The position numbers and the translations under genes were made by a program. Positions 9,010-59,966 of a stretch of DNA of 64,000 bases are shown here, piece by piece; position 1 is the first letter of the stretch; each line of letters opens with the position of its first letter. Under the pieces are notes generated by a model. The model was not told where the DNA came from. It ran no database searches and was given only the letters and a program-made list of their open reading frames with translations. The stretch lies in contig NZ_JACJLE010000015.1 of NCBI RefSeq assembly GCF_016901995.1, positions 1-64,000 on the forward strand. Direction: 5' to 3'. This DNA is from Bacteroides caecigallinarum (GTDB lineage Bacteria; Bacteroidota; Bacteroidia; Bacteroidales; Bacteroidaceae).

Positions 9010-9097
9010 GACACGTGTCAGTAGCATTACAGACAGCTGTCAGCCGCATTACAGACACGTGTCGGAAACTATACTGACACGTGTCAGCAATACGGCT
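9010..9097. repeat. Palindrome array A: four 22-bp units
   Basis: The palindrome GACACGTGTC starts at 9010, 9054 and 9076, and the variant GACAGCTGTC at 9032, so the starts are exactly 22 bp apart. The 12-bp spacers are partly alike (GCATTACA twice). A partial fifth unit GAC begins at 9098. The array lies between the convergent ends of ribD and a GH92 gene. An extra palindrome ATGAAAACGGTTTCAT precedes it at 8989-9004. Confidence 0.9.
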
Positions 9098-50311: not shown

Positions 50312-50315
50312 TACC

Positions 50316-50399
50316 GTTACACGTTCGTGTCACACTCGTCACACGTACGTGTCACATGCGTCACTCCTTCGTGTCACGGTAGTCACACGTACGTGTGAC
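50316..50399. repeat. Palindrome array B: four 22-bp units
   Basis: Units start at 50316, 50338, 50360 and 50382, exactly 22 bp apart. Each has an 18-bp dyad of the form GTCACACGTACGTGTSAC with some changes, then a 4-bp spacer (ACTC, ATGC, GGTA). The last unit is a perfect palindrome. Each unit also splits into two 11-mers that begin with GT. The array fills the gap between the convergent hydroxyisourate hydrolase gene and yfhO. Core letters resemble those of array A (ACACGT), but the sequence is different. Confidence 0.92.
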
Positions 50400-55034: not shown

Positions 55035-57680
55035 TTATAACCATTTTACAAATTTTCTTATATACCAATTCTTTATCATCTGTGTGAGAACACAGTAGGA
55101 CAACAATATTCCAAAGAGCCATGGGAAATAACTCAAAGGCAGCGGCTGTAATCCTATGGCACTTCCGAAACTGCTGAAAGGTATGAACAGACCGATGGCA
55201 ACAATTATCACTGTAAGGCATCCGACCTGCCATGATGAACGGCTCTGTATGAAAGGTATCTTGCGGGTTCTTATCATGTGTACAATAAGAGTCTGCGACA
55301 ACAGTCCTTCCACAAACCAGCCTGACTGGAACAATGCCTGATGTTCCACAGAGTTACATCCGAAAACATACCACATCACTACATATGTCAGTATATCGAA
55401 TATGGAGCTTATAGGCCCTATGTACATCATGAAACGACTCAAATCAGAAGCATCCCAACGACGAGGTTTCTTTAGATATTCCGCATCCATCTTATCGAAA
55501 GGTATTGTGGTCTGCGACACGTCATACAGCAAATTCTGTATCAGCAGATGAATAGGCATCATAGGCAGGAAAGGCAGAAACGCACTGGCAACCATCACAC
55601 TGAACATATTACCGAAGTTGGAACTTGCAGTCATCTTTATATACTTTGTAATATTACCGAAAGTCTTTCTGCCTTCAAGCACTCCGTCTTCAAGTACCAT
55701 AAGATCTTTTTCCAACAGAATGATATCCGCACTCTCCTTGGCAATATCAACAGCGGAATCAACAGATATACCTATATCCGACTGGCGCAATGCTGCCGCA
55801 TCATTTATTCCGTCTCCAAGGAAACCTACCGTATTATCCTGCTCCTGAAGAAGAGTTATAATACGTGTCTTCTGCATCGGTGTAAGTTTTGAGAATACTG
55901 TAGCTTTGGCTACGGCAGTTCTCTGCTCTTCATCTGACATTGAATCGAATTCCGGTCCGGTAACAGAGTTTGCAGTATCAATACCTACCTGACGGGCGAT
56001 GGTACGCACAACGGCATCATTATCTCCGGAAAGGACTTTCACCTCCACACCATGCTCATGCAACTGACGGATAGCATTAGCAGCCGATGGTTTCGGTGGG
56101 TCAAGGAAAGCCAGATATCCTATCAGAACCATATCGTTTTCATCGTCAATACAGAAATCAGATTCTTTATCGAGAAAACTCTTCTGAGCCACAGCAATAA
56201 CCCTCATTCCCTGACGGTTCATTCTCTCACTTATCTCGCGTGCCTTATCCTTCAATTCTACAGTCAGCGGATGTACGTCACCGGCAAATTCTGCATGCGA
56301 GCATATTTCAAGCATTTCTTCCACGGCTCCCTTGGTTATAATCTGACGTTTTCCCTGAGTATCCTCCACCACTACCGACATGCGGCGACGTGTAAAATCG
56401 AAAGGTATTTCATCTACTTTACGGTAATTATCTTTCAGATATTCAAGCGAAAGGTCTTTCACGTGCGAAAGAATAGCCTTGTCCATAAGGTTTTTCAGTC
56501 CGGTCTGGAAGAAACTGTTGAAATAGGCATGACGCAGGATACGCTTGTTCTCGTCGTTGCTGCCATCGGCATTGATATATTTTTCAAGGACTATCTGGTC
56601 GCAAGTCAATGTACCTGTCTTGTCCGTACACAGAATGTTCATTGCTCCGAAATTCTGAATGGCATTAAGGTCTTTCACGATGGTTTTCTTTTTCGACATA
56701 GCAACGGCTCCTTTAGACAAGTTGGCAGTAACAATCATAGGAAGCATCTCAGGAGTAAGGCCTACAGCCACAGATACTGCAAATATGAAAGCCTCAAGCC
56801 AATCGCCTTTGGTAATACCGTTAACAAGAAAAACAAAAGGAATCATCACAAGCATAAAGCGTATGAGCAGGAAGCTGACCTTACTGATCCCCTTGTCGAA
56901 GGCTGTAGCGGCACGATGTCCTGCTATACTGCGCGCAATAGTGCCAAGATATGTATTATTTCCTGTAGCAATGACTATACCTACACCGGAACCGCTCACC
57001 ACATTAGAGCCCATGAAACAGATATTACCCAGTTCCACCACACTGCCACTTTTTGCGCCCTTACAGTCCGGTGTTTTTTCTATAGGATCCGATTCTCCAG
57101 TCAGCGATGCCTGACTTACGAACAGGTCTTTAGCCTCAACAATTCGCACATCGGCTGGAATCATATCTCCGGCAGCTATTCTCACTACATCACCAGGAAC
57201 CAGTTCAGTAATGCTTATCTCACATGTATCATCATCGTCCTGCCTTATTACACTGCAAGTATTGGTTACCATCTTCAGTAAGGCTTCACTCGAGACATTT
57301 GCTTTCCACTCCTGCCAGAAACGAAGTATCGAACTTGATACAACCATTACAGATATGATTATTATGGCAGTCCAGTCCTGCTCACCCGGAGCAGCAAGAG
57401 CTACATCAAGAATAAACGAAACAATGACCAATATGGTAAGAACACCTATAAATGGATTTATGAACGCCTTGACAAAAACTGATATAGGATTTTTCTTTTT
57501 CTCATGTTCCACCTCGTTCGCTCCATACTCGAAACGGCGGATTTCCACTTCTTCAGCAGAGAGCCCTCGCGGGTTGGTCTGAAAATAGTTGAATACTGAG
57601 CCTACAGGCTGTGAAGCAGCAAGAAATACTTTCTCTGCATTAAAAGCTGAATTTGGTCCGAATTTTTTCTTCCTCAACAT
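55035..57680 (-). CDS. mgtA: Magnesium-translocating P-type ATPase
   Basis: An 881-residue P3B-type ATPase of the inner membrane that drives magnesium uptake with ATP. The phosphorylated Asp353 lies in LCTDKTGTLTC. It also has the TGES-type LTGESDPIEKTP, the hinge GDGINDAAALRQSDIGISV, and about 10 membrane helices (pairs near 65-110, 270-330 and six after 680). Length is typical. It lies 124 bp downstream of the sensor kinase gene, and the gap carries a -7 box and five phased repeats, so it is very likely controlled by that two-component system, perhaps in response to low Mg2+. Confidence 0.96.
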   Translation of the reverse strand: MLRKKKFGPNSAFNAEKVFLAASQPVGSVFNYFQTNPRGLSAEEVEIRRFEYGANEVEHEKKKNPISVFVKAFINPFIGVLTILVIVSFILDVALAAPGEQDWTAIIIISVMVVSSSILRFWQEWKANVSSEALLKMVTNTCSVIRQDDDDTCEISITELVPGDVVRIAAGDMIPADVRIVEAKDLFVSQASLTGESDPIEKTPDCKGAKSGSVVELGNICFMGSNVVSGSGVGIVIATGNNTYLGTIARSIAGHRAATAFDKGISKVSFLLIRFMLVMIPFVFLVNGITKGDWLEAFIFAVSVAVGLTPEMLPMIVTANLSKGAVAMSKKKTIVKDLNAIQNFGAMNILCTDKTGTLTCDQIVLEKYINADGSNDENKRILRHAYFNSFFQTGLKNLMDKAILSHVKDLSLEYLKDNYRKVDEIPFDFTRRRMSVVVEDTQGKRQIITKGAVEEMLEICSHAEFAGDVHPLTVELKDKAREISERMNRQGMRVIAVAQKSFLDKESDFCIDDENDMVLIGYLAFLDPPKPSAANAIRQLHEHGVEVKVLSGDNDAVVRTIARQVGIDTANSVTGPEFDSMSDEEQRTAVAKATVFSKLTPMQKTRIITLLQEQDNTVGFLGDGINDAAALRQSDIGISVDSAVDIAKESADIILLEKDLMVLEDGVLEGRKTFGNITKYIKMTASSNFGNMFSVMVASAFLPFLPMMPIHLLIQNLLYDVSQTTIPFDKMDAEYLKKPRRWDASDLSRFMMYIGPISSIFDILTYVVMWYVFGCNSVEHQALFQSGWFVEGLLSQTLIVHMIRTRKIPFIQSRSSWQVGCLTVIIVAIGLFIPFSSFGSAIGLQPLPLSYFPWLFGILLSYCVLTQMIKNWYIRKFVKWL

Positions 57681-57728
57681 TGTTCTTTCTTTTTTCAGCG
57701 TTACACATCATGGTTAAATTTCACGCTG

Positions 57729-57736
57729 CAAAGGTA
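57729..57736 (-). promoter_or_regulatory. -7 box of mgtA
   Basis: TACCTTTG on the minus strand is a perfect -7 match, 48 bp before the ATG. No TTTG stands at -33. That place is taken by the 11-bp repeats, as expected for an activator-dependent promoter. Confidence 0.75.
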
Positions 57737-57748
57737 GTGTGGAGACGT

Positions 57749-57799
57749 TTAGAACAGTGTTAGAAGACTATTAGAACGGTATTAGAATTCCATTAGAAC
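57749..57799 (-). promoter_or_regulatory. Five 11-bp repeats, predicted response-regulator binding site of mgtA
   Basis: TTAGAAC or a one-base variant starts at 57749, 57760, 57771, 57782 and 57793, every 11 bp without exception. On the mgtA strand the unit reads STTCTAA plus 4 bp. The nearest copy ends 12 bp upstream of the -7 box. Tandem 11-bp repeats over the -35 region are how PhoB/PhoP/OmpR-type regulators bind. The regulator encoded at 59172-59861 is of this type. Confidence 0.8.
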
Positions 57800-57804
57800 A
57801 ATAT

Positions 57805-59175
57805 TTAAAGATGCTCCATTTCGACCACGAATGTTGTTCCCTTTCCCTCATCGGACAATACGTTTATTTTACCCTGATGAAGATTTACTATCTTCTGGGC
57901 CAGGGCCATACCTATACCATGACCTACCGCAACATGTTCCTGCTTACCTCTGTAAAACAGTTTGAACATGTTCTGCTGCTCATCATCGGAGAGTCCCGCT
58001 CCATTGTCGGACATACGGACTACTGTCCATTTGTTCCAAAACGAAATCTGCACAAATGAAGTCCTGTCCGGTGAGTACTTGCAATTATTCTCTATCAGAT
58101 TTGAGAAAGCGATACTGAGAAGATATGAGTTTCCGCTGACGGTGACAAAACGGTCATCATCCGTTTCCTGTTCATCAAAAACCAGTTCAATCTTATATTC
58201 AGGGTGCGCCCTGAGAATACATTCGCGCACATCAAGCAGAAGTTCGTCAAGACGTATTTCCTGCATACTTATCTGCTCCTTACCATAATCAGCCTTGGCA
58301 AGATTAAGTAGTCCGTCTATCAGACTGTTCATCCTGCGCGCATCGTTCATCACATTGTCAAGTGCATCCCTGTACTGCTGCTGAGTACGCTCTTTCTGAA
58401 GTGTTATTCCCAGCTCTGCCATCAAAGCCGCAAGCGGAGTACGCAGTTCGTGCGACACATTGCTTACAAACATCTTCTGCGAATTGAAAGACTCTTCAAG
58501 CCTTGAAAGCAAATCGTTGAATGTAGTTGCCAGTTCGCCAAGTTCATCCTTTTCGTTCTTGACAGGCAAGCGGCGACTGATACTTGTAGCTGAGATATTC
58601 TCTGCCTCTGACACAATATCACGGATTGGCTTTAATGCCGCACGCGAAAGATAATATCCCGAAACGAACAAAAGACTCAGTCCGATAACAAACAATACTA
58701 TAAGTGCATTAAGAAGAGAGGAGAGATTATCATATCCATATCCGTCATACGCAGCTGCTGTAACCACATACTTTCTTCCTCCATAGTCATAAAGCATACC
58801 TATACACTGATAACCGTCAACATAAAACTCCATATCGCCATCAGTCACTATGGTCTGTATCATAGCGCTGTCCTCCTTTATTATATCGTTCTGCACTGCA
58901 TCATGATAGAGCATACGGAATGATGTGTCATACACAGCCACTTCCACCTCATTGATAAACTTGCGGTTATTAAGATATATAGACTGCATCACTTCCGAGT
59001 CCACCTGCCCTCCCAAGAAAAGATGAGCCTTTGTCACAGCCTCGCTCCTGAGGTCATGAAAAAAAGTTTTGCTCCGGATATGCTCGCTCGCCACATATAC
59101 CAATGACAAGCATAGCGCGAAAACAGCTGCTGTTACAAGCGAATTTTTAAGAGTTAGTGCGGTTCTTATCTTCAT
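57805..59175 (-). CDS. Sensor histidine kinase
   Basis: A 456-residue inner-membrane kinase. It has one helix near residues 12-30, a periplasmic sensor region of about 120 residues (35-150), a second helix (about 152-174), HAMP (about 175-225), the dimerisation domain with His242 in FVSNVSHELRTPLAAL, and the ATPase domain (NLIENNCKYS, DNGAGLSDD, GHGIGMALAQ). The periplasmic part has several acidic residues (DVDSEVM, KEDSAM, DGDMEF), which would suit a cation sensor. It overlaps the regulator gene by ATGA, and its stop is 5 bp from the mgtA repeats. Confidence 0.94.
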   Translation of the reverse strand: MKIRTALTLKNSLVTAAVFALCLSLVYVASEHIRSKTFFHDLRSEAVTKAHLFLGGQVDSEVMQSIYLNNRKFINEVEVAVYDTSFRMLYHDAVQNDIIKEDSAMIQTIVTDGDMEFYVDGYQCIGMLYDYGGRKYVVTAAAYDGYGYDNLSSLLNALIVLFVIGLSLLFVSGYYLSRAALKPIRDIVSEAENISATSISRRLPVKNEKDELGELATTFNDLLSRLEESFNSQKMFVSNVSHELRTPLAALMAELGITLQKERTQQQYRDALDNVMNDARRMNSLIDGLLNLAKADYGKEQISMQEIRLDELLLDVRECILRAHPEYKIELVFDEQETDDDRFVTVSGNSYLLSIAFSNLIENNCKYSPDRTSFVQISFWNKWTVVRMSDNGAGLSDDEQQNMFKLFYRGKQEHVAVGHGIGMALAQKIVNLHQGKINVLSDEGKGTTFVVEMEHL

Positions 59176-59861
59176 AGCGGTTTATCAGTCAGAATAAATC
59201 CCATTCCTGGTTTTGTGTGTATAAGTTTGGTATCGAAATCCTTGTCTATCTTCTTGCGCAGATAGTTTATATAGACATCAATGAAGTTTGTTCCAGTGTC
59301 GAAATGAGTGTTCCAAACCTTCTCGGCTATCTCCATACGGCTTATCACCCTTTCCGGGTTTTCCACCATATAGACAAGCAGGTTATATTCTTTAGGAGAC
59401 AATTTTATCTGTACACCGTTTCTTGTTACTTCGCATGTATTAAGATTGATTGATATGTCAGAATATGACACAGAGTCCTGCCTTACAGTCTGTGGCGATG
59501 AATATCTTTTCAGCAATACCCTGATACGTGCGTTAAGTTCCCTGAAATCGAATGGTTTCAGCATATAGTCGTCTACTCCGGCATCAAAACCGTCAAGTTT
59601 ATCATCGGTAGAACCAAGAGCCGTAAGCATAAGCACCGGTACATCCGGATTTATTTTCCTTATCTCCTTGCATAAACCGAAACCGTCAAGCCCGGGAAGA
59701 ACGATATCCGAGATCACCAGATGAAACTCATTTGAGCGGAAGAGACGTAAACCCATCTCTCCATCATATGCCACCATCACACTATAGCCATTCTCTTCAA
59801 GCCCGGCCTTCAGCAAGTCGGCTACACGCTTCTCATCTTCTACTATCAATATACTTTGCAT
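59172..59861 (-). CDS. OmpR-family response regulator
   Basis: A 229-residue regulator. The receiver domain has ILIVEDEKRVADLL, phospho-acceptor Asp52 (VISDIVLPG), Thr in MLTALGS and Lys102 (MLKPFDF). The C-terminal winged helix (about 128-226) has LSPKEYNLLVYMVENPERVISR and TNFIDVYINYLRKKID. Members bind direct repeats about 11 bp apart, and such an array lies upstream of mgtA on the same strand. A -7 box TATCTTTG (59892-59885) is 24 bp before the start. Confidence 0.95.
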   Translation of the reverse strand: MQSILIVEDEKRVADLLKAGLEENGYSVMVAYDGEMGLRLFRSNEFHLVISDIVLPGLDGFGLCKEIRKINPDVPVLMLTALGSTDDKLDGFDAGVDDYMLKPFDFRELNARIRVLLKRYSSPQTVRQDSVSYSDISINLNTCEVTRNGVQIKLSPKEYNLLVYMVENPERVISRMEIAEKVWNTHFDTGTNFIDVYINYLRKKIDKDFDTKLIHTKPGMGFILTDKPL

Positions 59862-59904: not shown

Positions 59905-59966
59905 AAAACGCCTCGTCGTTTTAATTAAAATAACAAAGCGTTTTAATCAAAACGACAGGGCGTTAA
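59905..59966. repeat. Palindrome array D: 22-bp units
   Basis: CGTTTT starts at 59917 and 59939, and CGTTAA at 59961. AAAACG starts at 59905 and 59949, with AAAATA at 59927. All are 22 bp apart. Together they form palindromes such as CGTTTTAATCAAAACG and a long hairpin AACGCC...GGGCGTT with 14 of 16 pairs. The array lies between the rpsO terminator and the two-component promoter. Confidence 0.85.

Follow-up and report, generated by a model that had tools for sequence, protein, structure and literature searches.

A conserved array of TTCTAAT repeats upstream of mgtA is the predicted operator of an adjacent two-component system in scattered lineages of Bacteroidia

A tandem array of 7-bp units separated by 4-bp spacers lies between a sensor histidine kinase gene and mgtA in the window, that is, the whole 64,000-nucleotide stretch of Bacteroides caecigallinarum DNA analyzed here. 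Comparison with related genomes makes it very probable that the neighbouring two-component system uses this array as its operator, and that the family of this system runs a Mg2+/divalent-cation regulon in scattered lineages of Bacteroidia. The features are as follows.

55035-57680, minus strand: mgtA, Mg2+-translocating P-type ATPase (TIGR01524, 1269.6 bits; cut-off 610.75)
57681-57728, minus strand: -7 box to mgtA start codon, which would contain the transcript leader
57729-57736, minus strand: -7 box TACCTTTG of the mgtA promoter, matching TAnnTTTG
57748-57798, minus strand: five tandem 7-bp units, one every 11 bp, predicted response-regulator binding sites
57748-57754, minus strand: fifth unit, TTCTAAA, clade-specific and promoter-proximal
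57759-57765, minus strand: core unit 4, TTCTAAC
57770-57776, minus strand: core unit 3, TTCTAAT
57781-57787, minus strand: core unit 2, TTCTAAT
57792-57798, minus strand (the mgtA strand): core unit 1, TTCTAAT
57805-57807, minus strand: kinase stop codon
57805-59175, minus strand: sensor histidine kinase (HAMP, HisKA, HATPase_c; PDC-like sensor domain in a structure model)
59172-59861, minus strand: OmpR/PhoB-type response regulator (Response_reg and Trans_reg_C), with a 4-bp overlap with the kinase start

The five phased units that the earlier note had placed at 57749, 57760, 57771, 57782 and 57793, in a frame of its own, proved correct on re-reading, as did, in the same frame, its gap of 12 bp to the -7 box and its distance of 5 bp to the kinase stop codon. 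In the frame used here, core unit 4 is 22 bp and the fifth unit 11 bp from the TACCTTTG box. The consensus of the main sigma factor of Bacteroides (sigma ABfr) comprises TAnnTTTG at -7 and TTTG at -33 (PMC7366714). The -7 element is present in front of mgtA and the -33 element is absent, no TTTG being found 18-22 bp upstream of the -7 box, which confirms what the earlier note had said of this promoter. When periodicity is scored by comparing five 7-mers taken every 11 bp and counting the identical pairs, the array reaches 63 of 70, the maximum of the window; 100 dinucleotide-shuffled versions of the complete window gave maxima with a mean of 40.3, the highest being 48. The periodicity is far beyond chance. 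Rfam at the gathering threshold recovered two tRNAs only in the window, and no Mg2+-sensing RNA or riboswitch.

For comparison we used 37 loci encoding a relative of the kinase plus 11 of 151 family genomes with the kinase, the own genome of the window included; some of the named genome records are MAGs. Examination of 38 of those loci for the position of mgtA and for the array revealed mgtA directly downstream of the kinase gene at 26 (25 distinct). The full array, with four units of which the last ends exactly 22 bp before TAnnTTTG, is present at 23 of these 26 loci, and the remaining three (L014, L016 and L026) have two strong units with the helical phase kept within one base. The conserved core comprises three TTCTAAT and one TTCTAAC with 4-bp spacers and 22 bp to TAnnTTTG; a fifth unit was seen only in the clade of the window. 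The five-unit array ending 12 bp from the box, as first described, is real in this genome, but the conserved element has four units and a gap of 22 bp.

A wider collection of sites, each scoring 22 or more out of 28 over the four units and followed by TAnnTTTG after 21-23 bp, has 60 members that are distinct over 68 bp of sequence. The gap is 22 bp in 56 of them, 23 bp in three and 21 bp in one. Mean information content in 50 sites with the 22-bp gap is 1.51-1.94 bits per position in the units and 0.48-0.75 in the spacers, compared with 0.24 bits in the gap and 0.13 bits in the upstream flank. The sites precede genes for MgtA (29), RND adaptors (9), MgtC (6), CzcC (3), outer-membrane proteins (3) and others (10), mgtA being over-represented because most loci were fetched via the neighbouring kinase.

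The regulator has receiver (PF00072) and C-terminal winged-helix (PF00486) domains above cut-off, and, as in operators of the OmpR/PhoB class, direct repeats spaced by about 11 bp precede the core promoter. The kinase shares 97% identity with its counterpart in Candidatus Phocaeicola faecipullorum. The best NCBIfam models for the kinase and the regulator are heavy-metal families, both below cut-off (TIGR01386, 204.4 bits versus 292.55; TIGR01387, 215.3 versus 279.2), so that the two proteins do not qualify as members of CusS/CzcS and CusR/CzcR. In a structure model (pLDDT 79.6), the kinase sensor is a PDC-like domain between two long helices. Pfam gave no match of any kind in the sensor domain of the kinase, and PhoQ_Sensor (PF08918) was found in none of 61 family genomes including the own genome, the E. 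coli control being positive; when the sensor by itself was compared with the PDB in Foldseek, nothing matched at E <= 0.001 (best E 2.8e-3). In VIA-align, the modelled sensor matched WalK (Z 9.9), PhoQ 3bq8 (Z 9.7, rmsd 3.3, 105 aligned, 13% identity) and also the CusS sensor domain (Z 8.3). WalK, PhoQ and many Cache domains score close together; the modelled fold is of the PDC type and is non-specific to PhoQ, and because of this near-tie it names no ligand. Kinase positions 31, 45, 76, 92, 97, 101 and 144 (among them D92, D97 and E101) are invariably acidic across the 27 closer relatives, and position 78 is acidic in 26 of the 27. Position 97 is hydrophobic in three paralogues. In the kinase of Dysgonomonas (L049), encoded in a genome whose mgtA is preceded by a two-unit array, lysine is found at 76 and 97 and histidine at 101. 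These conserved acidic positions are regarded as candidates only.

The earlier note had predicted that the system activates mgtA. The array at mgtA supports that target, but the predicted regulon in relatives is wider, and includes MgtC, an OprB-like protein, a CzcCBA-type RND system and, as a near-match, MgtE. Order- and phylum-wide pattern searches were run independently of mgtA. With up to three mismatches, the order search gave 18 matches in 16 of 393 genomes, and the backward control gave one; with up to two mismatches, the phylum search gave matches in nine of 296 genomes and none for the backward control. Two of the nine genomes were previously known, and seven belong to the same class outside the order. 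No array-plus-box pattern was found in the sampled phylum genomes outside class Bacteroidia, and the system appears scattered and patchy within that class. According to homology and ORF reading, the genes behind the 25 distinct matches encode MgtA, MgtC or MgtE (10), CzcB-/CzcC-type RND components (9), outer-membrane proteins (2) and other or small products (4). The RND gene starts around 400 bp downstream at L233 and is a 33%-identical fragment at L164, and the MgtE case (L161) is a near-match that departs from the pattern at three positions, two of them in unit 3 and the third in the -7 box. Curated cut-offs were passed by MgtC (PF02308), MgtE (TIGR00400) and CzcA (TIGR00914); the RND adaptors passed the general adaptor model (TIGR01730) and not the CzcB model (TIGR00999), and the OprB match of the outer-membrane protein is sub-threshold only.

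Several arrangements place Mg2+ and metal-export genes together. Leyella stercorea has mgtA and mgtC diverging from back-to-back full arrays, and Dysgonomonas has mgtA and an RND adaptor gene diverging from back-to-back two-unit arrays. Bacteroides faecis MAJ27 (L032) carries a full array at mgtA and a further one ahead of an RND operon. G772, a class-level relative, has regulator, kinase, array, mgtC, orf and mgtA in this order, the last running off the contig end, and in G776 the kinase gene and a gene on the opposite strand are followed by the array, mgtC, an adaptor gene, czcA and, by reading, czcC. In G153, mgtC is split over two frames in the assembly and lies between the kinase gene and mgtA, with a weak divergent array seen by eye. 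MgtC as a general target was rejected, since among 30 scored loci of the MgtC family the array occurs only at L223 (G321). The MgtC copy of the window genome itself (L218) has no array (best score 16 of 28), and the array-bearing mgtC copies of G152 and G209 are outside the 30.

Other observations concern the surroundings of individual sites. At L083, L084, L085 and L097 the array has a gap of 22 or 23 bp and is followed by genes for small secreted Lys/Ala-rich proteins, and the genomes concerned have a paralogous regulator branch with 55-57% identity; at L085, a Cys-rich small protein is encoded behind the array beside a transporter that reads as Nramp-like. In G321, the two arrays at L170 and L191 lie next to a different regulator of the clade and precede genes for a putative TonB-dependent receptor and an outer-membrane-like protein. 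In G175, a second copy of mgtA is accompanied by an array and a regulator of its own (L148). The mgtA matches at L048 (5501-8295) and L022 (2420-5004) are in two pieces, with no read-through in the assemblies.

Low Mg2+ is the likeliest signal on this evidence, because MgtA, MgtC and MgtE are unrelated proteins that share only Mg2+ biology; the RND half of the predicted regulon nevertheless keeps a metal-stress signal alive. A heavy-metal or divalent-metal stress sensor of the CusRS/CzcRS type, activated by toxic metal and inducing mgtA and mgtC as metals displace Mg2+, is an unlikely but not negligible alternative. The best NCBIfam models for both proteins are indeed those of a heavy-metal regulator and kinase, but both miss their cut-offs. 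CusS is among the fold matches of the sensor, and nine of the 25 distinct order and phylum sites precede CzcB-/CzcC-type genes; on the other side, ten precede MgtA, MgtC or MgtE, and mgtA is the direct neighbour at 26 of the 38 loci. In G155, the regulator is present, mgtA is absent and the array precedes a metal-efflux (RND) operon, so that Mg2+ need not be the signal. The window genome, however, has no array-plus-box site besides that of mgtA. In an iron study of B. thetaiotaomicron (PMC10434189), the change in mgtA was opposite to that of two CzcA-type RND operons and agreed in direction with that of a third; co-regulation is therefore not shown there, the mgtA and RND operons having been taken for this comparison regardless of array presence.

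The position of the array relative to the promoter bears on the sign of regulation. The fifth unit in the clade of the window reaches to 11 bp from the -7 box, and it is conceivable, though improbable, that the array overlaps the contact region of the polymerase and that the regulator represses mgtA, with phosphorylation relieving or causing the repression. Against this, TTTG at -33 is found in none of the 60 sites (18-22 bp upstream of the -7 box, which was itself required for counting), as expected for activator-dependent promoters, and even the two-unit forms preserve their helical phase relative to the -7 box to within one base.

Several lines of evidence connect the array, as a predicted activator site, with the neighbouring two-component system. 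Among the 151 family genomes, the kinase is present in 11 (E <= 1e-60), mgtA in 10 (E <= 1e-200) and the array in 10. Kinase and array occur together in nine genomes, the kinase only in two, the array only in one and neither in 139 (Fisher p 6e-12, a value inflated by the relatedness of the genomes), and the backward-pattern control gave no match in these 151 genomes. Both genomes with the kinase and no full array (G009 and G037) have two-unit arrays, and the single array match without the kinase (G014) resembles an 11-bp minisatellite. mgtA is present in all eight genomes with a kinase at least 44% identical and absent from all three with a 35-37% identical paralogue. The full array accompanies six of the ten mgtA genes of the family, and the two-unit form three (G009, G037 and G059); the tenth (G150) has none, and the best regulator of that genome is 47% identical and outside the regulator clade. 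Eight genomes in which mgtA had not been seen directly behind the kinase gene were searched for it, and it was found in five, with the full array at mgtA in four and two strong units in Dysgonomonas G158. The array tracks mgtA even when apart from the kinase gene, and therefore belongs to mgtA and not to the 3' end of the kinase gene.

In a midpoint-rooted tree of 53 rows (47 different), from which class-level relatives and the partial L156 regulator were left out, 51 regulators form one group (100/100) versus two outgroups with 46-47% identity, and the recognition helix GTNFIDVYINYLRKKID is identical or near-identical in most of the regulators compared, including those beside mgtA, mgtE and czcC. 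This shared helix, together with the co-occurrence of array and kinase, makes it very improbable that a regulator other than the adjacent one binds the array. In the own genome 33 candidate regulators were scored, and boxes of the OmpR family are short and similar, but only the adjacent regulator passes E <= 1e-60. Arrays were also found in two genomes with no regulator at that threshold, a two-unit array at mgtA in G059 and an array before an outer-membrane protein gene in G469, the two assemblies being fragmented or 89%-complete. Conversely, G157 has the regulator gene and no array match, and L156 has an array-like site (three mismatches) beside a partial regulator with a different recognition helix. 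Autoregulation through a box just before the regulator gene was rejected, as no array lies within 130 bp of its start at 33 loci (best score 18 of 28). The idea in the earlier note of an OmpR/PhoB-type activator array for mgtA, served by the adjacent system, is strongly supported at the level of prediction by the geometry, the tie of array to mgtA, the co-occurrence with the two-component system and the arrays at mgtC, but as first put it was incomplete.

Repeats occur elsewhere as well. The genome-wide search for TTCTAA-type repeats that the earlier note had proposed recovered the mgtA array but no second array-plus-box site, and mgtA is the only array-plus-promoter site in the own genome. 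With up to three mismatches over 18 positions, the own genome has seven forward and eight reverse matches, the frames of the mgtA array included, and the backward control has seven and 10; therefore weak single sites mean nothing. The other good array of the own genome, C215:646-735 (L149), was rejected as a site, having no -7 box and lying downstream of a gene that reads as a putative ribosomal-protein methyltransferase. This array and four places in the close relative G160 (L139-L142) are long 11-bp-phased arrays without a -7 box, several of which alternate TTCTAAT and TTCGAAT and in places continue into TTTAAACGCTA-type units; they look like a clade-specific minisatellite with units like those of the mgtA array. 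The window also has intergenic arrays at 50315-50396 and 9010-9089, each made up of 3.6-3.7 copies of a 22-bp unit with a palindromic core (ACACGTACGTGTCAC and GACACGTGTC types); the former is its second-strongest 11-bp-phased region. A 22-bp direct repeat, CGTTTTAATTAAAATAACAAAG, at 59917-59960 upstream of the response-regulator gene overlaps a 24-bp inverted repeat (arms within 59907-59964). It is present in the window and, as judged by eye, in L022 but absent in L023, and therefore was not read as part of the system. That the repeats at mgtA are likewise an 11- or 22-bp intergenic tandem minisatellite without regulatory role, as the C215 and G160 arrays and the two 22-bp arrays of the window might suggest, is extremely improbable and largely refuted by conservation of the mgtA array across families at a fixed promoter spacing, with the same geometry in other families of Bacteroidia and mostly functionally related downstream genes.

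The array, its geometry and conservation, its co-location with the two-component genes and the recognition helix shared by the regulators are all observed in the DNA, and from them we infer regulator binding, activation of mgtA, dependence on phosphorylation and a Mg2+ signal. In the operator model that we favor, the PDC-like domain of the kinase would respond to divalent cations in the periplasm, most likely to a scarcity of Mg2+. Molecules of the phosphorylated regulator would then line up head-to-tail along the array, each occupying one TTCTAAT unit, and with the 4-bp spacers the resulting tandem oligomer would lie on one face of the DNA. Bound in this manner, it would recruit RNA polymerase to the mgtA promoter, which has a good -7 box and no -33 box, and would stand in for the missing -33 contact, so that transcription of mgtA would depend on the regulator (class II-like activation). 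In scattered Bacteroidia lineages, the regulon would take in mgtA, mgtC and probably mgtE, together with an outer-membrane protein and CzcCBA-type metal export.

PhoP autoregulates, and enterics have a long mgtA leader. Here, in contrast, no array lies just before the regulator gene (promoters within 130 bp), and the mgtA leader is too short to be of the enteric kind. The system resembles PhoP/PhoQ of Enterobacteriaceae in its predicted mgtA and mgtC targets (mgtC in relatives, not in the window genome) and in the PDC-type fold modelled for the kinase sensor. It differs in having no PhoQ_Sensor domain, an operator of four TTCTAAT-N4 copies and metal-export RND genes in the predicted regulon. 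The PhoP/PhoQ regulator activates Mg2+ transporter genes and mgtC, and mgtC has been recruited independently in different lineages (PMC2650801). The earlier note's suggestion of a PhoPQ-MgtA counterpart therefore holds for the Mg2+ genes among the predicted targets but not for descent, given the sensor domain and the lack of an array before the regulator gene; the best reading would be a system functionally like PhoPQ and not orthologous to it.

The 7-bp motifs recognized by PhoP of M. tuberculosis must be separated by 4 bp, and runs of three or four motifs are bound more tightly (PMC4832192). This is a structural precedent for an operator built of 7-bp direct repeats and 4-bp spacers, although motif sequence, phylum and targets differ. 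The PmrA box of Klebsiella and Salmonella has head-to-tail half-sites 11 bp apart, CTTAAT and CCTAAG with a 5-bp spacer (PMC3973317). The core is related and the 11-bp spacing is shared, whereas that box has two six-base half-sites and polymyxin-resistance targets and the array here has four units. CusRS and CzcRS supply the closest curated protein models, and some regulators of the clade are located beside czcC; however, scores are below the model cut-offs, the linked gene is mgtA and the operator is a direct-repeat array.

Among the papers listed by searches of the open-access literature, with most subscription papers falling outside it, none was seen to deal with this operator or with a Mg2+ two-component system in Bacteroidia. 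Because the system is patchy, it would explain Mg2+ sensing in some lineages and not in all. Bacteroidia are a dominant group of the human gut, and the array offers a predicted operator with predictions at the level of bases, spacing and genomes. If the proposal is correct, it would represent convergent evolution with PhoPQ, the same genes being controlled through a different sensor family and a different box, and it would link Mg2+ uptake with metal export via a shared operon and back-to-back promoters. We tentatively suggest, as an idea somewhat short of an even chance, that one ancient Bacteroidia two-component regulon, independent of PhoPQ, couples Mg2+ acquisition to CzcCBA-type export, with the operator kept and the targets swapped. 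The acquisition half of such a regulon would consist of MgtA, MgtC, MgtE and the outer-membrane protein, and the coupling would mean that unselective Mg2+ routes are opened in scarcity while the transition metals that leak in are pumped out at once.
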